This document shows, one piece after another, positions 13,354-28,866 of a stretch of DNA of 33,962 bases. Both the position numbers and the translations under genes were made by a program. Each line of letters starts with the position of its first letter. Position 1 is the first letter of the stretch. Under the pieces are notes generated by a model, which saw only the letters and a list, made by a program, of their open reading frames with translations, searched no databases and had not been told where the DNA came from. The stretch covers positions 1-33,962 of the forward strand of contig SHYW01000051.1 in the NCBI GenBank assembly GCA_009692615.1, in the 5' to 3' direction. Source of the stretch: Deltaproteobacteria bacterium (lineage in GTDB: Bacteria > Desulfobacterota > Binatia > UBA9968).

Positions 13354-13782
13354 ATGATTCAACTAGACATAAGCATCCTTTATCAGGTCATTCTTTTTGT
13401 CGTCCTGTGGCTGATTCTCAACAAGCTGTTATTCCAGCCCTATCTCCATTTACTCAGTGAACGGGAACGCAAAACCAGCGGCGCCCAGCATGATTCGAGC
13501 GACTTGGAACATCAAGGCGCGCGCTTGAAAGCGCAGTACGAAGAGAAGCTCGCCGAAGCCCAAGCCGCCGGTTACGCGGCTAAGGATGACATCGTTCAAG
13601 AGGGCCGCCAACAACGGGAAAAAATTCTCAGCCAGACGCGCGCCGAAGCGACGGGTTCGCTGGAACGGGTGCGCGCCGAAGTGGCGACGGCTCTCGAGCA
13701 AGAGCGGCGTCTCGCTGCCGCCGAAGTGACCAATGTTGCCGGCGCCATGGTCGCCAAAGTGTTGGGGAGGACGGTCGGGTGA
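13354..13782 (+). CDS. atpF': ATP synthase F0 subunit b' (b-type stator)
   Basis: The 142-residue protein has one N-terminal membrane helix (about residues 8-25, ILYQVILFVVLWLILNKLLF) and a long charged coiled-coil (ERERKTSGAQ to the C-terminus). This is the layout of the peripheral-stalk b subunit, in the short divergent form called b'. It lies directly before a second b-type gene, and the two would make a heterodimeric stalk. The downstream gene overlaps its stop by 4 bases (GTGA). The b' assignment rests on gene order and on its being the more N-terminally compact of the two. Confidence 0.88.
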   Translation: MIQLDISILYQVILFVVLWLILNKLLFQPYLHLLSERERKTSGAQHDSSDLEHQGARLKAQYEEKLAEAQAAGYAAKDDIVQEGRQQREKILSQTRAEATGSLERVRAEVATALEQERRLAAAEVTNVAGAMVAKVLGRTVG

Positions 13783-14345
13783 GCGGTTTTAATATTCTCG
13801 ACCTTTTTACCACGGCGCAAGTGTGGGCTTCGGAAGCGGCCAGCCATGGCGCCGAGCATCACGCGCCGTCGATCAACGATATTTGGTTTCCCCTCGGCAA
13901 CTTTCTCATTTATGCCGCCATTATCTACTGGTTTGCCCTACCGCTGGTGCGCGATTTCCTAAAAAGCCGGCGCGAAGAAATCGTGGCAACCATCGCTCAA
14001 GCTTCGGCAAAGAAGCAAGCTGCGGAAGCCTTCGTCAGCGATTATCAAGCCAAGATCGCCGGCTTGGACCAACAGATCAAAACCTTGCAAGCGACGCTGC
14101 GCGATGAAGGTGAGCGCGAGAAATCTCGGCTGGTCGCCGAAGCCCAGTCGCTGTCGCAAAAAATCACCGCAGACGCGCAGTTTCTCGCCGACCAAGAAGT
14201 AAAAATCGCCCGCCAGCAGGTGCGCCAAGAGATGGCCGATCAGGCGGAAGCGGCGGCGCGAGAATTGGTCCAGCGCAATCTTTCGGCGGCGGATCAAAGT
14301 CGCTTGGCGGATCAATTCATTCAAAGTATTGGACAGACGCGATGA
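13779..14345 (+). CDS. atpF: ATP synthase F0 subunit b
   Basis: This 188-residue stator subunit has an N-terminal extension of about 30 residues with several His (SHGAEHHAPS), a membrane helix (FPLGNFLIYAAIIYWFALPL) and a long Ala/Gln/Glu/Lys-rich coiled-coil. It starts with GTG overlapping the b' stop by 4 bases, and its own stop overlaps the start of atpH (ATGA). These overlaps indicate tightly coupled translation of the stalk subunits. Confidence 0.9.
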   Translation: MSGFNILDLFTTAQVWASEAASHGAEHHAPSINDIWFPLGNFLIYAAIIYWFALPLVRDFLKSRREEIVATIAQASAKKQAAEAFVSDYQAKIAGLDQQIKTLQATLRDEGEREKSRLVAEAQSLSQKITADAQFLADQEVKIARQQVRQEMADQAEAAARELVQRNLSAADQSRLADQFIQSIGQTR

Positions 14346-14884
14346 TCGAAGGCAGCTTAGCACGCAGATACACCAAGGCGCTGTTTCAATTGGCCCGCGA
14401 GGCGAGCCAGGAAGAAGCGGTGGGCCGGCAAATCGAAGAGTTCGTCCGCGCCTACGACGGCTCGGATTTGCGCATGGTGCTGACCAACCCAGCCTTCGAC
14501 GTGCCGACTCGCAAGCGGGTGCTGATTCAAGTCGCCAACAGCCAGCAGCTATCGGTGCTGACGATTCATTTTTTGTCGCTCTTGCTCGAACGGGATCGGC
14601 TCGGCCATTTATCCGGCATCGCCAGTTGCTATCGCCGTTTGCTAAACGAAGCCAAGGGACGGGTCGAAGCGAAAGTGATCAGTGCCAGCGCGCTGGAACC
14701 GGCGCTGGTCGATCGGGTGCGCGAACAGCTGCGCGGCTTGTCGGGCAAGGACGTGGTTTTGGAGCAGGAAGTCGACCCGAGTCTGCTCGGCGGCATGACC
14801 GTCGAATTGGCCGGCAAAGTTTACGACGGCAGCATTCGCACTCAACTTGAGAAGATGAAACAGCGCATGGCGCGCGGTTATTAA
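14342..14884 (+). CDS. atpH: ATP synthase F1 subunit delta
   Basis: The delta subunit connects the peripheral stalk to the top of the F1 head. The 180-residue protein shows the family start SLARRYTKALFQLARE, the middle LTNPAFDVPTRKRVLIQVAN and the C-terminal block EVDPSLLGGMTVELAGKVYD followed by RTQLEKMKQRM. Length is normal. Its ATG overlaps the atpF stop. The next gene, atpA, begins after a 126-base gap filled with inverted repeats. Confidence 0.95.
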   Translation: MIEGSLARRYTKALFQLAREASQEEAVGRQIEEFVRAYDGSDLRMVLTNPAFDVPTRKRVLIQVANSQQLSVLTIHFLSLLLERDRLGHLSGIASCYRRLLNEAKGRVEAKVISASALEPALVDRVREQLRGLSGKDVVLEQEVDPSLLGGMTVELAGKVYDGSIRTQLEKMKQRMARGY

Positions 14885-14898
14885 ATTGTCATTTCGCG

Positions 14899-14987
14899 TA
14901 CGGGGTATTAACCCGGTACACGACCAAAGGGGATGCTCGCCCCTTTGGATTCCCCAATAAGAGGGTCCTCGCAGCAAGCTGCGGGGA
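14899..14987. repeat. Cluster of three palindromes between atpH and atpA
   Basis: Three hairpins follow each other: GTACGGGG with CCCGGTAC (imperfect, about 14898-14918), CCAAAGGGG (14924-14932) with CCCCTTTGG (14940-14948), and TCCTCGCAGC (14966-14975) with GCTGCGGGGA (14978-14987, one G.T pair). There is no T run after any of them. They look like REP-type extragenic repeats inserted in an operon; they might affect mRNA processing or relative expression. Confidence 0.55.
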
Positions 14988-15010
14988 GTTATTAGATTTA
15001 GGAGAGAACG

Positions 15011-16519
<1,509 letters not shown>

Positions 16520-16523
16520 GTTT

Positions 16524-16570
16524 CGAGTTTCGGGTATAGAGTTTCGCGTTAACCCGAAACCCTAAACTCG
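16524..16570. repeat. Inverted repeat between atpA and atpG
   Basis: CGAGTTT (16524-16530) pairs with AAACTCG (16564-16570), and GTTTCGGGT (16527-16535) pairs with ACCCGAAAC (16552-16560); the two stems are alternatives that overlap. The whole 72-base gap is made of such variants of a GTTTCGGGT-like phrase. No T run follows, so it is not a classical terminator. Confidence 0.5.
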
Positions 16571-16591
16571 TAACCCGGAACAGTAACAACC

Positions 16592-17458
16592 ATGGCAACA
16601 CTGAAAGTCATACGTAAGCGGATCGGCTCGGTTAAGAATACCCAGCAGATCACCAAGGCCATGAAAATGGTCTCGGCTGCCAAGCTGCGCCGGGCCCAGG
16701 AATCGGCGGTGCAGGCGCGCCCCTATGCCGAGAAGATGACCGAGCTGTTGAAGAACGTCTCGGCGCGGGTTTCTAGCGAGGCCCATGTGTTGCTCACCGC
16801 CCGCGAAGAAAAAAAGATCGATCTGGTGCTGTTTACTTCAGACCGCGGTTTGTGCGGCGGTTACAACACCAACATGATCCGCGCCGCGGAAAGCTTCATG
16901 CGTGAGCATTCCGGCGCCAAGGAAATCTCCTTGACATTGGTCGGCCGCAAGGGGGCGGATTATTATCGCCGGCGCGGCGCCAAGATCGCCGATCGTTACA
17001 TCGATATTCTCTACAAACCGGCCGATGAGTTGGCGGCGCAGATCGCCGAGAAACTGATTGCCCGCTTCATCGGCGGCGAGACCGACGCGGTTTATATTCT
17101 CTACAGCCGCTTTCGTTCGGCGCTGTCGCAGATCCCGACATTGCAAAAATTATTGCCCGTGGCGTTGGCGGAAACTAGCGACGTGGAAGCGCAGCAACAG
17201 ACCGAATATTTATACGAGCCGGGCGTCGAGCAACTGCTGGCGAGCCTGCTGCCGCGGATTACCGACGTGGCGGTGCAGCGGGCGTTACTTGAAGCCACCG
17301 CCAGCGAACATGGCGCGCGCATGACCGCCATGGAATCGGCCACCGGCAACGCGGCGAAGATGATCGGCGCACTGACTTTGCAGATGAACCGGGCGCGCCA
17401 AGCGTCGATCACCCGCGAGCTGTTGGAAATCGTCGGTACGGCGGAAGCATTGAAATAG
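16592..17458 (+). CDS. atpG: ATP synthase F1 subunit gamma
   Basis: Gamma is the rotating central shaft. The 288-residue protein starts LKVIRKRIGSVKNTQQITKA and KMVSAAKLRRAQ, holds the Rossmann-like middle FTSDRGLCGGYNTN, and ends with the conserved MESATGNAAKMI and NRARQASITRELLEIVGTAE helix that inserts into the alpha/beta ring. Length is normal. The ATG lies 72 bases after atpA, without a strong ribosome binding site. Confidence 0.97.
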   Translation: MATLKVIRKRIGSVKNTQQITKAMKMVSAAKLRRAQESAVQARPYAEKMTELLKNVSARVSSEAHVLLTAREEKKIDLVLFTSDRGLCGGYNTNMIRAAESFMREHSGAKEISLTLVGRKGADYYRRRGAKIADRYIDILYKPADELAAQIAEKLIARFIGGETDAVYILYSRFRSALSQIPTLQKLLPVALAETSDVEAQQQTEYLYEPGVEQLLASLLPRITDVAVQRALLEATASEHGARMTAMESATGNAAKMIGALTLQMNRARQASITRELLEIVGTAEALK

Positions 17459-18961
<1,503 letters not shown>

Positions 18962-18971
18962 ATTCGGCATG

Positions 18972-19034
18972 AGGCTTGAGGCGCGAGGCATGAGTCGATT
19001 CGGACTCGCGCCTCGTGCCTTCCGCCTCAAGCCT
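18972..19034. repeat. Long inverted repeat between atpD and atpC
   Basis: AGGCTTGAGGC (18972-18982) pairs exactly with GCCTCAAGCCT (19024-19034). Inside, GCGCGAGGCATGAGTC can pair with GACTCGCGCCTCGTGC at 13 of 16 positions, with a short loop near 18997-19002. The result is a stem of about 27 pairs ending just before the atpC start. It ends without a T run and is probably a repeat insertion or mRNA stabiliser/processing site rather than a terminator. Confidence 0.6.
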
Positions 19035-19045
19035 TGGTATTTTCC

Positions 19046-19462
19046 ATGGCAGATAAGATCAAACTTAGAGTAGTGACCCCGAGCCGGTTGATGTTCGATG
19101 AGGACGTCGACGAGGTTTCGGCGACGGGCGAACTCGGCGAGTTCGGCGTGTTGCCCAATCATATTTCGTTTCTCTCGACGCTGGTGCCGGGTGAGATGAC
19201 TTTCAAGCAGGGTGCCAACAAGCGCATGCTGGCGGTGAGCGGCGGCTATGCCGAGGTGCTGGACAACGTCATGACCGTGTTGGCGCCGGCGGCCGAATTC
19301 GGCGCCGAGATCGACAGCGCGCGCGCCCAGCGGGCCAAGGAGCTGGCCGAGAAGCAGCTGGTGAAGTTCAGCCGCGAAGAGAAAGATTTCCAACTAGCGG
19401 AGATTGCCTTGCAACGGGCGCTGGTTCGGCTCCAGGTTGCTAGTAAAGAAACAAGAAGATAA
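19046..19462 (+). CDS. atpC: ATP synthase F1 subunit epsilon
   Basis: The epsilon subunit sits on gamma and regulates the enzyme. The 138-residue protein has the N-terminal beta-sandwich (LRVVTPSRLMFDEDVDEVSA, GELGEFGVLPNHISFLSTLV, LAVSGGYAEVLDNVMTVLA) and the C-terminal helical hairpin (SARAQRAKELAEKQLVKF...ALQRALVRLQVA). The frame is open from TTG 19034, inside a long palindrome, but ATG 19046 starts the expected MADKIKLRV. It is the last atp gene; subunits a and c are not in this window. Confidence 0.95.
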   Translation: MADKIKLRVVTPSRLMFDEDVDEVSATGELGEFGVLPNHISFLSTLVPGEMTFKQGANKRMLAVSGGYAEVLDNVMTVLAPAAEFGAEIDSARAQRAKELAEKQLVKFSREEKDFQLAEIALQRALVRLQVASKETRR

Positions 19463-19499
19463 GTAAATAGGAATGCGATCGCAGTAAGGAGGAAGCATT

Positions 19500-20633
19500 A
19501 TGGCCGAAGCAGAAAAACAAGAACCCATCATTACCATGTGGAGCAAGGAATTCACCTACGACCGGTGGATGAAGTCGAAAGGTATTCCGATCCACAAGGG
19601 CTATTTTATCCCTGATCTTCGCACCGTCGAGTTGGAGTGGTGGGAAGAACGAGGCTGCAAGGCCGCCTTCATTCAGCTCTGGGGCCAAGAAGGCGTCAGC
19701 GCCGCGCGCGTCACTGAAGTTCCTCCCGGCAAATCGTTGCCGCCGGTTAAGTTCGCCTTGGATGAAGTCGTCTACGTATGCTCCGGCCGCGGTTTGACCA
19801 CCGTCTGGTCTGGCGAAGGCAAGCCGAAGAAGAACTTCGAATGGCAAGAGCACTCGATGTTTCTCATACCGCGTAACCACTGGCATGTGTTTAGCAACAT
19901 GACCGGCGACAAGCCGGTTAAGCTGTTTCACTACAGCTATATGCCGATGGCGATGTCGGCGTTGCCCGAACCCGACATGTATTTCAACAATCCTTACGAA
20001 TCGAAAATCACCGCCGATCAGGGCGATTTTTATTCCGAAGCGAAGATGGTTCAGGCGAAAGACGCTGATGAAGGTTTGGGTATGCGCGCCTTCTGGTACG
20101 GCAATTTTTTTCCCGACATGCGCGCTTGGAACAAGCTCGATGCCAACGAACGGCGCGGCGCCGGCGGCAAGAGCGTGTTCATGCAGTTCCCCAATTCCGA
20201 ATTGACCGCCCATATGTCGGTGTTCGCCCCTAAGACCTACAAGAAGGCGCATCGTCATGGCCCTGGACGGGCGATCATCATTCCCGCCGGCGAAGGCTAC
20301 TCGATCATGTGGGAAGAGGGCAAAGAGAAAGTCGTTTGCCCGTGGCATGAATGCAGCATGATCACGCCGCCGAACAAATGGTTTCACCAGCATTTCAACG
20401 CCGGCGGTGACATGGCGCGTTATTTGGCGCTCCATCCGCCCATGCAGTTCCATGGCCACGCGGAAAAGATCGAAGACCGCGCCAAAGATCAGATCGAGTA
20501 TCCTAACGAGGATCCGTTCATTCGTCAGAAATTCGCGGAAGAGTTGGGCAAGCGCGGCATCGAGAGCATCATGCCCGCCGAAGCCTACACCAACCCCGAC
20601 TACGACTGGTCCAAGACGATGGGCAAGCAATAA
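19500..20633 (+). CDS. Bicupin protein (paralogue A), ethanolamine-lyase-associated type
   Basis: The 377-residue protein is a two-barrel cupin. The C-terminal barrel has HRHGPG (His251, His253) and later NKWFHQHFN (His296, His298), enough for a metal site. The N-terminal barrel keeps a Glu in ALDEVVYV and RNHWHV but has no HxH in its first motif, so that half is probably non-metal or altered. No signal peptide is seen. AAGGAGG at 19487-19493 supports the ATG. A perfect hairpin follows the stop, and an EutA-type gene is next. Proteins of this kind have been labelled 'ethanolamine ammonia-lyase-activating protein', a label I recall from annotation only; the actual activity is not shown. The paralogue at 24136 is about the same length and clearly related. 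Confidence 0.8.
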   Translation: MAEAEKQEPIITMWSKEFTYDRWMKSKGIPIHKGYFIPDLRTVELEWWEERGCKAAFIQLWGQEGVSAARVTEVPPGKSLPPVKFALDEVVYVCSGRGLTTVWSGEGKPKKNFEWQEHSMFLIPRNHWHVFSNMTGDKPVKLFHYSYMPMAMSALPEPDMYFNNPYESKITADQGDFYSEAKMVQAKDADEGLGMRAFWYGNFFPDMRAWNKLDANERRGAGGKSVFMQFPNSELTAHMSVFAPKTYKKAHRHGPGRAIIIPAGEGYSIMWEEGKEKVVCPWHECSMITPPNKWFHQHFNAGGDMARYLALHPPMQFHGHAEKIEDRAKDQIEYPNEDPFIRQKFAEELGKRGIESIMPAEAYTNPDYDWSKTMGKQ

Positions 20634-20660
20634 GTCATCATAAACTAAAAATTCGATTAC

Positions 20661-20697
20661 GGAATCCCCGCTCCAGTGAGCGGGGATTCCTGTTATT
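20661..20697 (+). terminator. Strong hairpin terminator after bicupin A
   Basis: GGAATCCCCGCTC (20661-20673) and GAGCGGGGATTCC (20678-20690) form a perfect 13-bp stem with a 4-base loop, followed by TGTTATT. The T tail is weak but the stem is very stable. It ends 20 bases before the next ATG, so the EutA-type gene would be read through only partly or has its own start within a small gap. Confidence 0.65.
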
Positions 20698-20710
20698 GGG
20701 GTAGAACAAT

Positions 20711-22255
20711 ATGGCGGACGCTATACAGAGGCTACAGATGCACGACGATATCTACGATCACGACCATCCGGATAATTTCATCATTAAAGAGGATGAGATC
20801 GTCACCGACATCGAAGGGTTGGAGATGTTCTCGCTGAAAAGCGTCGGCATCGACATCGGCTCGTCGACATCGCATTTAATTTTCTCGCATATCACGCTGC
20901 GGCGCGAAGGCGCGTCGTTGTCTGGCAAGTTTCGGGTCACCGGTCGCGAGGTGCTCTATCGCTCGCCGATCATGCTGACGCCCTACACTTCGGCGACCAA
21001 GATCGATACCGATAAGGTCAATGAGTTCATCCACAACGCTTATAAAGAAGCGGGCTTGACGCCGGAGGATGTCGACACCGGCGCGGTGATCATCACCGGC
21101 GAAGCTCTGAAAAAAGAAAACGCCCAACCGATCGTTGAGAACTTCGCCAAATACTCCGGCAAGTTCATCTGTGCCGCGGCGGGCCATAATCATGAGGCGC
21201 TACTGGCCGCTTACGGCTGTGGCGCGGTGGATCTTTCCAAGGGCGAGCACAAGACTGTGCTCAACGTCGACATGGGCGGCGGCACGACCAAATTTTCTCT
21301 TGTCGAAGAAGGCGTCGTGACGCAGACCGCATCGATCAGCATCGGCGCGCGGCTGATCGCCTTCGACGAGAAAGACCAAATCACGCGCATCGAAGATCCC
21401 GGTCGAATCATGATGACCGAGCTTGGCCACAAAGTTGAGCTGGGCCAGAAGATCAGCGAGAAAATGAAAGAGGACTTCGGCGCCTATATGGCGAAGATTC
21501 TCTTCGAGGTCATTGAAACTGGGCCCAAGTCGCCGATGGCGAGTTCGCTCATGGTGACGCCGCCGTTCGTCAATTATACCGGCTTCAAACAAGTGCAGCA
21601 CTTGGTTTTTTCCGGCGGCGTTTCCGAGCATGTTTACGACCGCGACCCGAAGTCCTATGGCGATATCGGCCCGGTGCTTGGCAAGAACATGCGCGATTAT
21701 TTAAAAAAACTGCCCAAGGGTGTGCTACGCGAGCCCATCGAAGGCATCCGTGCCACGGTCATCGGCGCCGGCGAGTACACGATTCAAGCGAGCGGCAACA
21801 CCAGCTATGTTTCCAACGAGAAGGCGCTGCCGGTGCATGGTCTCAAGGTCATTCAAGCGCCGGTGCGCGAGGGCGAGTCGGTGAGCGCTGGGCTCAAACA
21901 GGCGCTAAGAAAGTTTGACCTGAAAAGCTTCACTTCCGGCTTGGCTCTGTCCTTGACGGTCAGCGGCGTGCCCACCTATCAATCGGTGCGGCGCATTGCT
22001 GAGGGCGTCGCCGAGATTCTCAAGGAGGCCGACGATGCCACGTGCCCGCTCTATTTAACCCTGGACTTGGATATCGCCAAGTCGCTGGGCGCGATTCTGC
22101 GCGACGAACTCAACGTTTCCCGCGACATTATCGCCATCGACGGCATCGAAGTCGGCGACTTGGATTACATCGATATCGGCGAATGCTTGGGGATCACGGA
22201 AGTGATCCCCGTGACCGTCAAGTCGCTGATGTTTCCGACGACGATGAGCGATTAG
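20711..22255 (+). CDS. eutA: EutA-type ethanolamine ammonia-lyase reactivase (ASKHA ATPase), orphan
   Basis: EutA removes damaged cobalamin from ethanolamine ammonia-lyase in an ATP-driven cycle. The 514-residue protein has the ASKHA phosphate motifs GIDIGSSTSHL (46-56) and DMGGGTTKF (187-195), plus the EutA-type blocks VFSGGVSEHVY, RATVIGAGEYTIQASGN and the C-terminal YIDIGECLGITEVIPVTVKS. These strongly resemble enterobacterial EutA. It is longer than the usual length because of a roughly 40-residue N-terminal extension rich in His and Asp (HDDIYDHDHPD at 11-21). No eutB or eutC is in the window, so the target enzyme is elsewhere or different. A strong terminator follows. Assignment to the EutA family is firm; the substrate is not. 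Confidence 0.87.
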   Translation: MADAIQRLQMHDDIYDHDHPDNFIIKEDEIVTDIEGLEMFSLKSVGIDIGSSTSHLIFSHITLRREGASLSGKFRVTGREVLYRSPIMLTPYTSATKIDTDKVNEFIHNAYKEAGLTPEDVDTGAVIITGEALKKENAQPIVENFAKYSGKFICAAAGHNHEALLAAYGCGAVDLSKGEHKTVLNVDMGGGTTKFSLVEEGVVTQTASISIGARLIAFDEKDQITRIEDPGRIMMTELGHKVELGQKISEKMKEDFGAYMAKILFEVIETGPKSPMASSLMVTPPFVNYTGFKQVQHLVFSGGVSEHVYDRDPKSYGDIGPVLGKNMRDYLKKLPKGVLREPIEGIRATVIGAGEYTIQASGNTSYVSNEKALPVHGLKVIQAPVREGESVSAGLKQALRKFDLKSFTSGLALSLTVSGVPTYQSVRRIAEGVAEILKEADDATCPLYLTLDLDIAKSLGAILRDELNVSRDIIAIDGIEVGDLDYIDIGECLGITEVIPVTVKSLMFPTTMSD

Positions 22256-22282
22256 CGCGTTCGAATTGGTTATAAGTTGCAC

Positions 22283-22315
22283 AAAGGCCTCGCCCACCAG
22301 CGGGGCCTTTTTTTT
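22283..22315 (+). terminator. Intrinsic terminator after the EutA-type gene
   Basis: AAAGGCCTCG (22283-22292) pairs with CGGGGCCTTT (22301-22310), one G.T pair, around an 8-base loop. T residues from 22308 to 22315 give an eight-base T run. This is a textbook rho-independent terminator. Confidence 0.85.
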
Positions 22316-22339
22316 GGGGCAATACTCACAGGATCATCA

Positions 22340-23203
22340 ATGGCTGAATACTTCGCCTTCCAAGCCGCGCTGTGCTTTTCTATCGCCCATGTGCTCATCC
22401 GGCGCGGTTTAGTCGGCTCCAACGCATTGACCTGTTCGCTGATTTCCCTGGCGACCACGGCGACGATTTTTTGGCTGCTGGTTCTAGTCTTGATTCCATT
22501 ATCCGCCCTGTGGACGCCGGCCATCGGTTACTTTATCGCCGCCGGGATTTTCGCGCCGGCCATCGGCCAGACCCTGGGTTACATCGGCATCGAGCGGATC
22601 GGCGTGGCGCGCTCGACGCCGATCGTCAACTCGGCGCCGATCTTTTCGTCGAGCTTCGCGGTGCTGTTTTTGGGCGAAGTGTGGACCGGGCAAAATATTC
22701 TCGGCACTCTGTCGGTCATCACCGGTGTGATCATCTTATCTTCAGGTAAAAATTCCGCGGGTGATGAGTGGCGCAAGATCGACATTCTTTATCCGCTCGT
22801 CGCCGCGGTGGCTTTCGGTATCTCGACGACGCTGAGAAAATCTGGATTGTCGCAATTACCTATTCCGCTGTTGGGCGCGGCGGTGACGGTGGGCACGGCG
22901 TTTATGATATTGCTGTTGCTGGTTCAATGGCGTGGCGGCCGCCAGGCGCTGAAATTCAATTCAATCAGCACGCGCTGGTTGTTCGGCGCCGCGGTGGTCA
23001 ACACCGGCGCGATTCTCTCGGTGTTCTCGGCGCTCAACGTCGGTAAAATCGTTCGGGTCGAGCCGTTGATCGCCTGTAATCCTTTGTTAACGATTGTTTG
23101 GGTGGGAATTTTTCTGCGCCAAATCGAGCGCATCTCGGCGCGCATCGTGGTCGGCGCGCTGTTCACGGTGTTGGGAACCACGTTGGTGGTGACGGCGCGA
23201 TAA
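22340..23203 (+). CDS. EamA/DMT-superfamily transporter, paralogue 1
   Basis: The 288-codon frame (287 residues) has about ten membrane segments arranged as two repeated halves of five, the hallmark of the drug/metabolite transporter family. Each half holds an EamA-like core (IRRGLVGSNAL..., IGIERIGVARSTPIVNSAPI; then STTLRKSGL..., VEPLIACNPLLTIVWVGIFL). The frame is open from 22277, but that start lies inside the terminator, so ATG 22340 (MAEYFAFQAALCFSIAH), with AGGA upstream, is chosen. The next gene is a paralogue beginning ten bases after this stop. The two might work as a heterodimer or as separate exporters; the substrate is unknown. Confidence 0.85.
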   Translation: MAEYFAFQAALCFSIAHVLIRRGLVGSNALTCSLISLATTATIFWLLVLVLIPLSALWTPAIGYFIAAGIFAPAIGQTLGYIGIERIGVARSTPIVNSAPIFSSSFAVLFLGEVWTGQNILGTLSVITGVIILSSGKNSAGDEWRKIDILYPLVAAVAFGISTTLRKSGLSQLPIPLLGAAVTVGTAFMILLLLVQWRGGRQALKFNSISTRWLFGAAVVNTGAILSVFSALNVGKIVRVEPLIACNPLLTIVWVGIFLRQIERISARIVVGALFTVLGTTLVVTAR

Positions 23204-23212
23204 TTTTTTGCC

Positions 23213-24073
23213 ATGGCGATCTACTTTTCCTTTCAAGCGGCGCTGTGTTTTTCCATAGCCCATATTTTCATCCGGCGCGGTTTGGTCGATTCCAACGCCA
23301 TGACCGGTTCGTTTATTTCCTTGTCCATGAGCGCGGTGGTGCTCTGGCTCGCCGTGCCATTTTTCGCGCCGTTTGACGCACTGTGGAATCCGGCGGCCCT
23401 GTTGTTTGTCGTCGCCGGTATTTTCGCGCCCGGCATCGGCCGGACTTTGAGTTACGTCGGTATCGAAAAAATCGGCGTGTCCCGCTCGGTGCCGATCGCC
23501 AACTCGTCGCCGATCTTCGCCTCGGTATTCGCGGTGACCTTTCTCGCCGAGACTTGGGTCTTGCAGAACGTCATCGGCACGCTGCTGGTCATCGGCGGTA
23601 TCGTTGTGCTGTCGATGGCGAAACCTGCGCGGGGCGAGTGGCGCAAAATCGATGTGATCTATCCATTGATCGGCGCGGTTGCCTTCGGCGCGTCAACGAC
23701 GCTGCGAAAATTTGGTTTAGGTTTCATCAACATTCCGCTGCTCGCTGCCGCAGTGACCGCGGGCTCGGCGGCGCTGTTCTCGTTTGCCCTGCTACAAATT
23801 CAGGGCGGCAGGCGGGCGTTTAAGCTCAACCGCCGTAGCGCCGCTTGGCTTTTTCCCGCCGGTTTGTTCAATACCGCGGCGATGCTCTCGGTGTTCTTCG
23901 CTTTGAGTCACGGCAAGGTGGTCATCGTCGAACCGCTGGTGAGTTCAAATCCAGTGACGACCTTGCTTTTAACGTCGATCTTTTTGCGCGATGTCGAGTC
24001 GCTTACGCTGCGGGTGATTCTCGGCGCGGCGTTGACCGTCACCGGGACGGTTCTCGTGGTGCTGGTGAAATGA
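23213..24073 (+). CDS. EamA/DMT-superfamily transporter, paralogue 2
   Basis: This 286-residue protein is plainly a duplicate of its upstream neighbour: both start with a nearly identical FQAALCFSIAH, share IRRGLV, GIFAP, WRKID and STTLRK, and have equal length. About ten membrane helices are visible in two halves. Only nine bases separate it from the first stop, so the two are co-transcribed. Differences cluster in the loops and membrane segments, so substrate or partner choice may differ. It is followed after 62 bases by the second bicupin. The ribosome binding site is weak, which suggests coupling to the upstream gene. Confidence 0.85.
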   Translation: MAIYFSFQAALCFSIAHIFIRRGLVDSNAMTGSFISLSMSAVVLWLAVPFFAPFDALWNPAALLFVVAGIFAPGIGRTLSYVGIEKIGVSRSVPIANSSPIFASVFAVTFLAETWVLQNVIGTLLVIGGIVVLSMAKPARGEWRKIDVIYPLIGAVAFGASTTLRKFGLGFINIPLLAAAVTAGSAALFSFALLQIQGGRRAFKLNRRSAAWLFPAGLFNTAAMLSVFFALSHGKVVIVEPLVSSNPVTTLLLTSIFLRDVESLTLRVILGAALTVTGTVLVVLVK

Positions 24074-24135
24074 GTTGTTTCACCCTTTGCAGGTGATAAT
24101 AATAATCACAATCAAAGTTCGGAGGGTTAGCGAAG

Positions 24136-25275
24136 ATGTCCAAGGCGATGCAAGCGGAACGCAAAATGTGGAGCAAGTTCTACAGCTACGATGAGTGGAT
24201 GGAAGGCCAAGGGATTCCCATCTACCGCGGCTACTACATCGAGGATCTGCGGACATTGGAATTGAAATGGTGGGACGCTCGCGAGTGCAACTCGGCGTTC
24301 ATTCAACTGGTCGGCCAGGAGGGGGTTACTTCCGCGCGAGTTACGGAAATCCCTCCGGGCAAGACTTTGCCGCCGCTGAAATTCGCCCTTGATGAAATTG
24401 TCTACGTCGTTGAAGGGCGCGGGCTGACGACCATTTGGTCCGGCGAGAAGCGGCCGAAGAAATCTTTCGAGTGGCAAAAACACAGTATGTTCTTGCTGCC
24501 GCACAACTATACACACCAGTTCACCAACATGCAGGGCGACAAGCCGGTGCGCTTGCTGCATTACAATTACTTGCCGCTGACTTTGTCCGGCCTGCGCGAT
24601 GTCAATTTCATCTTCGGCAACAATTACGAAGGCGCCGACATTCACAACGAGATGGATTTTTATTCCGAAGCGAAAATGGTTTCGCAAAATAATCTCGACG
24701 AGACCTGGGGCCGGCGCGCCTACTGGTACGGTAATTTTTTCCCCGACATGAAAGCCTGGGACAAGCTCGATAGCAACGCCCGGCGCGGCGCCGGCGGCCG
24801 TAGTGTGTACATTCAATTCCCCGACTCGGAAATGTCCTGCCACATGTCGGTGTTCGACGCGCGCTTATACAAGAAGGCCCACCGCCATGGCCCCGGCCGT
24901 GTGATCGTCATCCCAGTCGGCGAAGGCTACTCGATCATGTGGGAAGAGGGCAAAGACAAAGTCGTCGTGCCGTGGCATGAAGCGAGCTTGTTCGTGCCGC
25001 CCAACAAATGGTTCCACCAACATTTCAACGCCGGCGGCGATCCGGCGCGCTATTTGGCGCTCCATCCGCCCATGCAGTTCCACGGCCACGCGGAAAAAGT
25101 CGAAGACCGCGCCAAAGACCAGATCGAATATTGCAACGAAGATAAATGGGTGCGCGAAAAATTCGAAGGCGAGATGAGCAAACGCGGAATCAAATCGCTG
25201 ATGCCGCCGGAAGCCTACAGCGATCCGAACTTCGAATGGAATTGGAAACCGTTTGTCGAGCAAAAGCTGAAGTAA
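24136..25275 (+). CDS. Bicupin protein (paralogue B), ethanolamine-lyase-associated type
   Basis: This 379-residue bicupin is clearly a paralogue of the one at 19500: both start with MWSK followed by a YDxWM phrase, share RRGAGG and YKKAHRHGPGR, GEGYSIMWEEGK, NKWFHQHFNAGGD and RYLALHPPMQFHGHAEK. The C-terminal barrel keeps the HRHGPG and HQH ligands; the N-terminal barrel lacks HxH but keeps ALDEIVYV and LPHNYTHQF, the latter with two His. GGAGG lies 13-17 bases before the ATG. A strong bidirectional hairpin ends the gene. The two bicupins bracket the EutA-type gene and the two transporters, which suggests a shared pathway rather than random duplication. Confidence 0.8.
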   Translation: MSKAMQAERKMWSKFYSYDEWMEGQGIPIYRGYYIEDLRTLELKWWDARECNSAFIQLVGQEGVTSARVTEIPPGKTLPPLKFALDEIVYVVEGRGLTTIWSGEKRPKKSFEWQKHSMFLLPHNYTHQFTNMQGDKPVRLLHYNYLPLTLSGLRDVNFIFGNNYEGADIHNEMDFYSEAKMVSQNNLDETWGRRAYWYGNFFPDMKAWDKLDSNARRGAGGRSVYIQFPDSEMSCHMSVFDARLYKKAHRHGPGRVIVIPVGEGYSIMWEEGKDKVVVPWHEASLFVPPNKWFHQHFNAGGDPARYLALHPPMQFHGHAEKVEDRAKDQIEYCNEDKWVREKFEGEMSKRGIKSLMPPEAYSDPNFEWNWKPFVEQKLK

Positions 25276-27561: not shown

Positions 27562-27906
27562 CTATTTGCCGTCGTCGATGCTGACGACAATGATGGCGTT
27601 GGCGATCAGCCAGCCGTCTTTGCCCGTCTCGTTGAGCACCTGCAAGCCACCTTGGACCACGTTGATATGGCTGCCTCCGTGGGGCAGCGAGTCGAGCACC
27701 GCTTGTTTGTCTACCGCTTCCGGCTTGGGCACGCCGATGGTGACATCCACCCGCATATCGTCGGCGGTCTTGCCCACTAGACGGGGAAATCCCAGGCTGC
27801 TGTGATGAATCGCATCGAACACCGCGCGCTTGGCGGCAGCAGTATAATCCAAGCCGTGCACATCCACGCCCATACCCATCTCTGTAACGCATCGTACCAA
27901 TGCCAT
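27562..27906 (-). CDS. Lin0512-family conserved protein
   Basis: The 114-residue protein matches the small conserved Lin0512 family by its signature EMGMGVDVHGLDYTAAAKRA near the N-terminus, followed by VFDAIHHSSL, VDVTIGVPKPEAVDKQAV, LPHGGS and the C-terminal IANAIIVVSIDDGK. The family has no established function. GGAGGT lies about eight bases upstream of the ATG. It starts 48 bases after the stop of the signal-less SBP-fold gene (27955) and is probably in the same transcript, which may link its role to that gene. Confidence 0.8.
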   Translation of the reverse strand: MALVRCVTEMGMGVDVHGLDYTAAAKRAVFDAIHHSSLGFPRLVGKTADDMRVDVTIGVPKPEAVDKQAVLDSLPHGGSHINVVQGGLQVLNETGKDGWLIANAIIVVSIDDGK

Positions 27907-27954: not shown

Positions 27955-28866
27955 CTACGCGTTGACGTTGAGATCGACCAAAGCGGTGGCGCAGGGCGCG
28001 GTTTCGAGGAAATCCCAGCTCTTCATCCAGTCATAGGTGCGTTGTAGTTCATCGGCCGGGATCGGCGCCGGATCGACCAGATAGAGGCGGCTCGCGCGCA
28101 GATCGTCGATGGTGAGCTGGCTGATCTGCGGATCTTTGTCGCGATAGTAGTCGATGAAATAGTGCAGATAGGCGCGCTTGTTCGCCATGATCCGCCGCAC
28201 GGCTTCGCGGATCGCGCGATTAAAAGCGGCGTAGGTTTCGCTGTCGACACGATCGGACGCGACGTCGGTGCCGTGATGAAATGCCGAGATGACGATGCGG
28301 CAGCCCATTTTTTCCGCCAAAGAAATATACGGTTCGGTGAGGGTCGTCGCTTCGATAGTTCCATCCATGAGCATCTTGAAGCGGAAGTTGGAGCCGTTCG
28401 GCACCCGGCCGAGCTTGATTAACTCGCGCGGCACGAAGCCTTCCAACATCTGCAAGCACAGATAATGTGTGCCGCTATAAAAGGGGATGCCGATCTGCAC
28501 GTCGGCGAATTGCTGTGGCACCTGCACCGGCGAATCGGCGCGAACGACGAGCGCGGCAAAATTCACCATGGACCGACGGCCGACCTGCCGGCTACCGACC
28601 TTGGTGGTTTCAACCCGCGAAAAATTGCCCCATTCGCAGGCGTTGTAGAGGTCGGCCTGGCCGGATTCCATCATGCGTCCGTGGCTGGTGTAGCGCTCGG
28701 CTTCCTTATGATCCGTGATGTGCAGCTGCGGGCTTTTGTCGAGGCCCTTCTCACGGTCCATCCACTCGATCTGGATGCCTTCCTTCTCGAACAGACCTTC
28801 GTCGTGGGCGACGAGCTCGGCTAAGCCTTGAAACGGCGCAGTGGTCTCCAATCGCAATGTTTTCAT
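27955..28866 (-). CDS. SBP-fold protein without signal peptide
   Basis: The 303-residue protein has the type-2 binding-protein layout: LVAHDEGLFEKEGIQIEWMD, QADLYNACEWGN, LVVRADSPVQVPQQFADVQIG and MLMDGTIEATTLTEPY. It begins MKTLRLETTAPFQG with no signal peptide or membrane segment, so it should be cytoplasmic. Known cytoplasmic members of this fold include enzymes such as the desulfinase DszB and NMT1/THI5, where the fold binds or converts a small molecule; I cannot tell which applies. His63 and Arg64 (SHGRMM) followed by an NACEW segment (about residues 76-80) could be active-site parts. GGGGAG precedes the ATG. It heads a minus-strand pair with the Lin0512 gene. Confidence 0.65.
   Translation of the reverse strand: MKTLRLETTAPFQGLAELVAHDEGLFEKEGIQIEWMDREKGLDKSPQLHITDHKEAERYTSHGRMMESGQADLYNACEWGNFSRVETTKVGSRQVGRRSMVNFAALVVRADSPVQVPQQFADVQIGIPFYSGTHYLCLQMLEGFVPRELIKLGRVPNGSNFRFKMLMDGTIEATTLTEPYISLAEKMGCRIVISAFHHGTDVASDRVDSETYAAFNRAIREAVRRIMANKRAYLHYFIDYYRDKDPQISQLTIDDLRASRLYLVDPAPIPADELQRTYDWMKSWDFLETAPCATALVDLNVNA

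Follow-up and report, generated by a model that had tools for sequence, protein, structure and literature searches.

Recurrent pairing of bicupins with an EutA-family ATPase: a possible metal insertase or reactivase for non-heme cupin enzymes

Introduction

The closest described relatives of the ATPase considered here are the EutA proteins, which are described as stripping damaged cobalamin from ethanolamine ammonia-lyase in a process that requires ATP (PMC5821096). A gene of this family is found in a 33,962-nucleotide stretch of DNA (hereafter the window: positions 1 to 33,962, forward strand, of contig SHYW01000051.1 in assembly GCA_009692615.1) from a Deltaproteobacteria bacterium (Desulfobacterota; Binatia; UBA9968), where it follows a gene encoding a protein with two cupin domains (a bicupin). 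Here we report that bicupin and EutA-family ATPase form a core conserved unit, and we discuss the proposal that the ATPase serves the metal site of its neighbor. The window protein resembles the EutA reactivase in matching PF06277 over the full domain and in keeping the ATPase loops, and by analogy its likely role would also be to free an enzyme from a dead centre. It differs from the reactivase in that the window's genome has no EutB, in its position in a separate clade carrying S51, A167 and K194 where EutA linked to EutB and EutC (EutBC) has T, G and N, in a longer, acidic and His-rich tail (against 7-20 residues), and in having a bicupin as partner. What would be new is an EutA-type reactivase with a changed client; we do not call it categorically new, the mechanism being a proposal.

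Described counterparts exist for the bicupin as well. It shares with the gentisate and salicylate 1,2-dioxygenases (GDO and SDO) the bicupin fold and a metal-type site composed of an HxH motif and a later histidine. The N-terminal cupin of E. coli GDO and SDO is described as the iron-bearing one and its C-terminal counterpart as vestigial, and for the Silicibacter GDO (3bu7, the top match of the window bicupin) iron is reported in both cupins (PMC10306065). In contrast to these E. coli enzymes, the EutA-paired bicupins have their invariant site in the C-terminal cupin, and the window's clade lacks the N-terminal HxH motif altogether. Homogentisate dioxygenase is described with its metal site in the C-terminal cupin and with a carboxylate ligand (PMC4019311).

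Three further systems invite comparison. Among the metal-insertion GTPases of the G3E type (COG0523, UreG and HypB), proteins that carry a His stretch are described alongside others of one family that lack it (PMC2770081, PMC7055735). The proteins studied here are similar in carrying a His-rich stretch in part of the family, but the window protein has an ASKHA fold by model and is not a P-loop GTPase. Extradiol dioxygenases are described as being inactivated when their Fe2+ oxidises, and dedicated reactivating ferredoxins exist for them (PMC2590616). XylT-type ferredoxins would be analogous in that a protein devoted to the task returns an iron dioxygenase to activity, although repair there is reductive, whereas the ATPase that would act here has no conserved cysteine-cluster site. 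Finally, the activators of 2-hydroxyacyl-CoA dehydratases (archerases) combine an ASKHA fold with activation of a partner enzyme, and ranked first in a Foldseek comparison with the window EutA model; in a second structure comparison they score Z 14.6. Archerases hold a bridging [4Fe-4S] cluster through a cysteine pair; no such pair is conserved here, C154 being the sole cysteine among the invariant or near-invariant columns of 50 sequences.

Conservation of the Bicupin-EutA Pair

The module core consists of bicupin 1 (377 amino acids, 19500-20633, + strand) and the EutA-family ATPase (514 amino acids, 20711-22255, + strand). Its conservation was followed in an order set of 60 loci hand-picked among the hits, with long contigs favoured, plus four from the window's own genome; genes were predicted with a simple in-house caller, by which some starts and genes are wrong. 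A same-strand bicupin (cupin match above 35 bits) lies within 1.5 kb at 43 of the 64 EutA genes of this set, upstream in 42 cases, and 40 of the 64 retain an adjacent bicupin at a stricter score of 150 bits; the cupin matches at L090 (96 bits) and L097 (89 bits) are weak, and that at L127 (150 bits) is cut by the contig end. Adjacency holds for 18 of 19 EutA genes of the window type and, outside this clade and the C106-type clade treated below, for 25 of 34 (22 at 150 bits). At four loci, L020 of the window's genome, L083, L115 and L122, two haem-oxygenase-like genes are present and the bicupin stands three genes downstream, beyond 1.5 kb; at L103 it lies 2.4 kb upstream of EutA.

The pair reaches well beyond the host's order. 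A scan of named genomes returned at least 538 relatives, and the best 80 of these loci hold 89 EutA genes (24 shared with the order set), with a bicupin within 1.5 kb at 61 (60 at 150 bits), UbiD at six and neither at 22. The records that hold the pair among these best 80 loci bear the titles Binatia, Chloroflexi, Marinobacter algicola DG893, Acidocella, Rhizobiales, Phytohabitans, Acidobacteria and Tectomicrobia. In a sample of Alphaproteobacteria, 21 of 26 EutA genes have a bicupin within 1.5 kb, four have UbiD directly upstream and one (L335) has neither, and in a sample of Pseudomonadales all eight EutA genes of the bicupin-linked type adjoin a bicupin (both labels are inferred from the records on which the samples were centred). 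Recurrence in other genomes, whose absence the initial annotation had named as refuting its proposal, was found, with bicupin plus EutA as the recurring core. Searches aimed at this pairing found no published description of it in the open-licence literature, as judged from listings; in the ectoine papers among these, the name eutA denotes a different gene.

Some of these occurrences are in cultured organisms. Plasmids of Phyllobacterium zundukense and Sinorhizobium terangae carry a bicupin (368 bits each) directly upstream of EutA; on the former the two are annotated as a hypothetical protein and an ethanolamine ammonia-lyase reactivating factor, and the record of the latter lists no genes at this site. 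Such a label is misleading where EutB is absent, and the true client is probably encoded next to the gene. Marinobacter algicola has two adjacent pairs around an MFS transporter gene. Its occurrence there and in cultured rhizobia makes the pair experimentally accessible. One of the Marinobacter EutA copies (L150, 3235-4743) is broken by a TAG codon with its own bicupin beside it, and the intact second pair lies downstream. Two haloarchaeal plasmid EutA genes, in turn, sit after eutB and eutC.

Weak bicupin relatives (86-96 bits) are also found directly upstream of C93-type EutA genes, at L090 (9502-10572, - strand), L097 (9560-10633, - strand) and L128 (526-1809, + strand); they are perhaps another EutA-paired cupin subfamily.

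Co-occurrence Across Genomes and the Absence of EutB

Presence per genome follows the same pattern, with few candidates per genome being scored in all of these counts. Among 385 genomes of Alphaproteobacteria, 12 contain bicupins and 11 contain this type of EutA, 11 having both (Fisher 2e-20); with the sample centre G332 and also G337 and G339 set aside, all three known beforehand to hold both genes, the figures are 8 of 9 and 9e-16. Bicupins occur in three of 244 Pseudomonadales genomes, and all three have this EutA type, one of them (the centre, G330) having been known beforehand. Seven other Pseudomonadales genomes encode an EutA whose loop is of the GTTTTQ or GTSTTQ type, for which EutH and/or EutB neighbors were confirmed by Pfam at L261, L263 and L266, the remaining four being classed as EutBC-type by motif and by eye. 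Of 297 genomes of the host phylum, only two contain bicupins (both of the host order, one being the window's genome), and both have this EutA. Five other genomes of the phylum encode a full EutA, at L216 beside EutB and at L212-L215 with no EutB inside the flanks of 1.5 kb; the L214 gene is preceded by a ferredoxin and a C-terminal fragment of aldehyde:ferredoxin oxidoreductase (AOR), according to Pfam, and that of L215 by a ferredoxin, identified by eye.

The trees of the two partners correlate with r 0.76 over 51 dereplicated pairs, a value that none of 2000 permutations reached (maximum 0.17). In the bicupin tree, EutA-linked members do not group on one branch but turn up on several, interleaved with unlinked ones. 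Taken with the adjacency, the co-occurrence and the tree correlation make it highly probable that bicupin and EutA are functional partners, and the earlier proposal that this EutA goes with the cupin is supported by neighborhood and genome presence alike. Pure chance or an annotation artefact would be helped by the 30 bicupin matches in the window's genome, which make some adjacency expected, but it hardly accounts for a pairing that is seen, both side by side and genome by genome, in samples of three lineages, and we regard it as practically negligible.

The window's assembly (5.05 Mb, 186 contigs, 98.72% complete) gave no match to EutB (PF06751), for which an E. coli control did match, and a profile search likewise found EutB in none of 35 genomes of the order, the window's included; EutC was not searched for. 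The initial annotation had called EutA an orphan, had asked whether the host encodes an ammonia-lyase, and had allowed that eutBC might lie just beyond a contig break. For EutB, on which these searches bear, the orphan status is upheld, and placement of eutB just past the contig end is rejected, for this assembly, by the assembly-wide result. Each of the 35 order genomes has a strong EutA match (best E 1.6e-98 or better), and the window's genome has four full EutA genes and a fifth, weak hit of 34 bits over 74 positions. It is in keeping with the described role of EutA in reactivating a cobalamin enzyme (PMC5821096) that the protein might serve a cobalamin or radical enzyme encoded elsewhere in the genome, with the bicupins as bystanders. 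Given that EutB is found in none of the 35 order genomes (other cobalamin enzymes were not searched for) and that the bicupin pairing spans phyla, we consider this very unlikely. Of the two readings suggested at the outset, reuse of the fold appears to hold, and a distant radical or cobalamin enzyme is a less probable client than the neighboring bicupin, since EutA of this type tracks bicupins in neighborhood and in genome presence.

The EutA-Family ATPase

Residues 42-508 of the window protein match PF06277 (9.1e-122; 407.8 bits against a cut-off of 27; profile positions 3-474 of 475). Its score against the NCBI EutA equivalog is 352 bits, below the cut-off of 598, and the EutB-linked EutA of L263 also falls under every cut-off (best 569.7 against 769), for which reason the NCBIfam cut-offs were discarded as a test. 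The ATPase loop motifs are invariant in an alignment of 50 sequences. The bicupin-clade and EutBC-linked proteins have 45 conserved positions in common, the three conserved differences mentioned above (S51/T, A167/G and K194/N) being read from 28 and 9 sequences, respectively.

A structural model (predicted local distance difference test, pLDDT, 84.2) has an ASKHA-type fold whose nearest matches are the folds of Ppx/GppA, FtsA and archerases; in the second structure comparison exopolyphosphatase-type chains score Z 18.1 downward, AnmK 13.8 and ManNAc kinase 13.4, and a sequence search of the PDB returned no solved EutA relative of note. These matches bear on another explanation, in which the EutA-like protein would be a small-molecule kinase or other ATP-dependent enzyme of the same pathway as the bicupin, acting on its substrate or product. 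Kinases are numerous within the ASKHA fold, the matches of the model comprise phosphatases and kinases as well as activators, UbiD can replace the bicupin as partner, and the genomic surroundings are catabolic and include many binding proteins for transport. However, the nearest sequence relatives are EutA proteins, sharing the 45 conserved positions and set apart by three conserved differences, and an enzymatic step leaves the His-rich tail unexplained; we regard such a kinase or other enzyme as rather unlikely.

This tail comprises residues 1-43 of the window protein (20711-20839, + strand), is rich in His, Asp and Glu, and has pLDDT below 50 over residues 1-32 of the model. With the tail defined as up to 60 residues ahead of the ATPase motif, at least three His are present in 85 of 113 distinct EutA proteins, against 87 of the N-termini (first 43 residues) of 1288 distinct other genes in the same loci, and HxH in 68 of 113 against 23 of 1288; three of 140 EutA proteins without the marking motif were excluded. 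All 19 window-clade tails have both features, and at least three His are found in 9/9 tails of the C93 type, 11/11 of the C106 type, 6/9 of the others and 0/14 of the C30 type. The 7-20-residue tails of EutBC-linked EutA contain at most one His (seven of nine sequences readable, compared with 25 of 28 bicupin-linked ones).

In a tree of 50-odd members, obtained from one FastTree run and read without support values, bicupin-linked, UbiD-linked and C106-type EutA group together in a clade that is separate from EutBC-linked EutA and from L212-L215. The UbiD-linked and C106 types branch from inside the bicupin-linked part of this clade, and so the bicupin looks like its older partner. The same tree informs a broader explanation, that the protein is a general conformational ATPase activating enzymes that are sensitive to oxygen or depend on a cofactor (UbiD, AOR-type, bicupin), with the bicupin merely its commonest client. 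Such breadth would fit the UbiD genes directly upstream in 4/26 alphaproteobacterial cases, the related EutA of L214 that follows the AOR fragment and ferredoxin, and a C106 clade accompanied by a weakly ferredoxin-like protein and a carboxylase-domain protein. The nesting of the UbiD-linked and C106 types makes them look like cases in which the partner changed later; L212-L215 lie outside the bicupin-linked clade, and EutA presence per genome tracks bicupins closely. A general activator is improbable in our estimation.

We also would like to record the settings of these other types. The C106-type genes without an adjacent cupin are at L018 (12217-15507), L072, L076, L080, L091, L094, L101, L105, L108, L112 and L117; at several of them EutA is followed by small and TPR proteins, the weakly ferredoxin-like protein and a PYC_OADA/HMGL protein, and on the other side stand divergent DUF4175, TPR/peptidase-MA and MoxR-type AAA genes. 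UbiD lies directly upstream of bicupin-clade EutA at L199, L206, L208 and L317-L320, in Alphaproteobacteria-type genomes, with small genes after EutA at L199 and L206, one of which in L199 is a single cupin by Pfam.

The Bicupin and Its Family

Four histidines of the C-terminal cupin, H251, H253, H296 and H298, are present in 137/137 aligned bicupins (117/117 distinct), as is Y247 of the same cupin in 135/137. The bicupin family is supported by Pfam Cupin_2/Cupin_1. For the bicupin model (pLDDT 88.5), gentisate and salicylate dioxygenases occupy ranks 1-9 of the structure comparison (Z 20.8 to 19.8), with 3bu7 at Z 20.8 over 275 residues (root-mean-square deviation, rmsd, 7.0) and 4fag at Z 20.4 over 254 residues (rmsd 3.2). 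By sequence, the PDB yields only a weak match to a gentisate dioxygenase (E 0.006). Foldseek alone placed MncA, vicilins and oxalate decarboxylase on top, but the second structure ranking puts MncA and oxalate decarboxylase at Z 18.8, below the gentisate and salicylate dioxygenases, and a decarboxylase reading of the model is the weaker one. We infer an oxygenase, and the bicupin is probably a mononuclear non-heme Fe(II) ring-cleaving dioxygenase, Mn being less likely.

The 30 bicupin matches in the window's genome, some of them partial, constitute a large uncharacterised family expansion. Within two places of these bicupins are solute-binding proteins, UbiD (6 of 80 proteins), Amidohydro_2 (6), Rieske (4) and LigXa_C (3) genes, the scan having covered 80 of 86 proteins (two ATP synthase genes and four short proteins were omitted), and a UbiD gene directly adjoins 4 of the 28 bicupins recognised in the loci examined from this genome. 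The UbiD, amidohydrolase and LigXa-type Rieske genes beside the bicupins suggest aromatic-acid catabolism. The rhizobial pair has tricarboxylate-type transporters and sugar-acid genes as neighbors, and either the bicupin substrate may differ there or the aromatic-acid assignment may fail.

Proposed Mechanism

We propose that the EutA-family ATPase would bind the bicupin and that ATP binding and hydrolysis would open it; a dead centre, either oxidised or holding the wrong metal, could then leave, and the ATPase would load a fresh metal ion gathered on its His/Asp/Glu-rich tail. Such a cycle would amount to an EutA-style exchange of damaged cobalamin, shifted to the metal site of a cupin. Physical contact between the proteins, the identity of the metal and the direction of its transfer are what we infer here. 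The chances are about even, in our judgment, that the conserved unit is a bicupin with a C-terminal site together with a dedicated EutA-family ATPase acting as its metal insertase or reactivase; the metal role of the ATPase, taken by itself, we hold to be evenly balanced. Somewhat short of that, it is possible that a widespread class of EutA-family ATPases with metal-binding tails inserts or exchanges the metal of non-heme bicupin dioxygenases and was later extended to UbiD decarboxylases.

Several observations weigh against this proposal, the main weakness being that some members of the EutA clade have other or no obvious partners. None of the 11 C106-type genes adjoins a bicupin, nor do L084, L087 and, within the window's own clade, L123, which has none upstream; UbiD takes the bicupin's place at four of the 26 EutA genes from the Alphaproteobacteria sample and at six of the 89 from named genomes, and L335 has neither. 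The C30-type clade is bicupin-paired, yet without a His tail in any of its 14 members. The window's genome has 30 bicupin matches and four EutA genes, so that most bicupins have no EutA nearby, and G808 is bicupin-positive without an EutA match, its bicupin lying 250 bases from a contig end. The correlation of the pair trees partly reflects simple co-inheritance of a linked pair, and no bicupin-EutA fusion was present among the open reading frames examined. The gentisate and salicylate dioxygenases described so far are not known to require an ATPase.

If the proposal is true, ATP would drive a dedicated system for repairing or loading mononuclear iron cupins, of a kind not known from anywhere else. 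It would also provide an entry point to the large bicupin family whose expansion is seen in one 5 Mb genome.

Organisation of the Locus and Neighboring Genes

The initial annotation had described five genes, namely bicupin, EutA, EamA, EamA and bicupin, and this arrangement is present in that order on the + strand, directly behind an ATP synthase operon (13354-19462, named by eye from translations), with Pfam support; bicupin 2, which scores slightly under the Pfam cut-offs (26.9 against 27.2 bits and 20.6 against 22 bits), is assigned by its 65% identity to bicupin 1 over 375 columns. Bicupin 1 begins 37 bp after the atpC stop at 19462 and is preceded by a Shine-Dalgarno-like AAGGAGG (19486-19492, + strand); the scan output lists no terminator-like site between atpC and bicupin 1. 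EamA transporter 1 (287 amino acids, 22340-23203, + strand) and EamA transporter 2 (286 amino acids, 23213-24073, + strand) match PF00892 with 4.2e-22 and 79.3 bits and with 1.1e-25 and 90.9 bits, respectively (cut-off 28.2), and share 58% identity over 273 positions; bicupin 2 (379 amino acids, 24136-25275, + strand) is an accessory copy behind them.

An intrinsic-terminator-like hairpin with a T run (22283-22310, + strand) closes the unit of bicupin 1 and EutA. The start of EamA 1 is probably the ATG at 22340 and not the listed TTG at 22277, because a reading from the latter crosses this hairpin and the start of the paralogue aligns with 22340. Because of the hairpin, bicupin 1 and EutA are taken as one unit and the two EamA genes with bicupin 2 as probably another. 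With 16 sites where shuffled sequence leads one to expect 8.4, the terminator scan is permissive, and only this hairpin with its long T run was used; the promoter scan gave 2 sites against 3.3 expected. Terminator-like sites 3′ of EutA are also present at L081 and L092, both of the other same-genus loci examined, and in a simple search a hairpin with a T run follows EutA in 5/19 window-clade loci (the window, L075, L081, L092 and L113), with a weak sixth at L129; none was found in most other loci scanned.

By our own EamA profile, EamA genes are confined to loci of the host's order (19 loci, from two overlapping sets). On account of the hairpin and this restriction, we reject the five-gene block as a single operon, and the idea that two bracketing cupins define one joint unit gives way to a unit of bicupin 1 and EutA. 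Similarly, of the expectation that both bicupin and EamA pair would recur beside EutA genes lacking EutBC, the bicupin part holds and the EamA part is confined to those 19 loci. The EamA pair and bicupin 2 are lineage-specific additions, perhaps serving transport of a substrate or product.

A second, 13-bp perfect hairpin lies between bicupin 1 and EutA (20661-20690, + strand); it is listed as terminator-like by the scan, with the tail TGTTATTGGG and without a good T run. It may tune the expression of bicupin 1 relative to EutA, perhaps as a processing or attenuation site.

Further along the window, a Lin0512_fam protein (PF09585, 111 bits), to which no function is assigned, is encoded at 27562-27906 on the - strand, and the gene adjoining it (27955-28866), which has no Pfam or NCBIfam match, resembles by eye one for a solute-binding protein.

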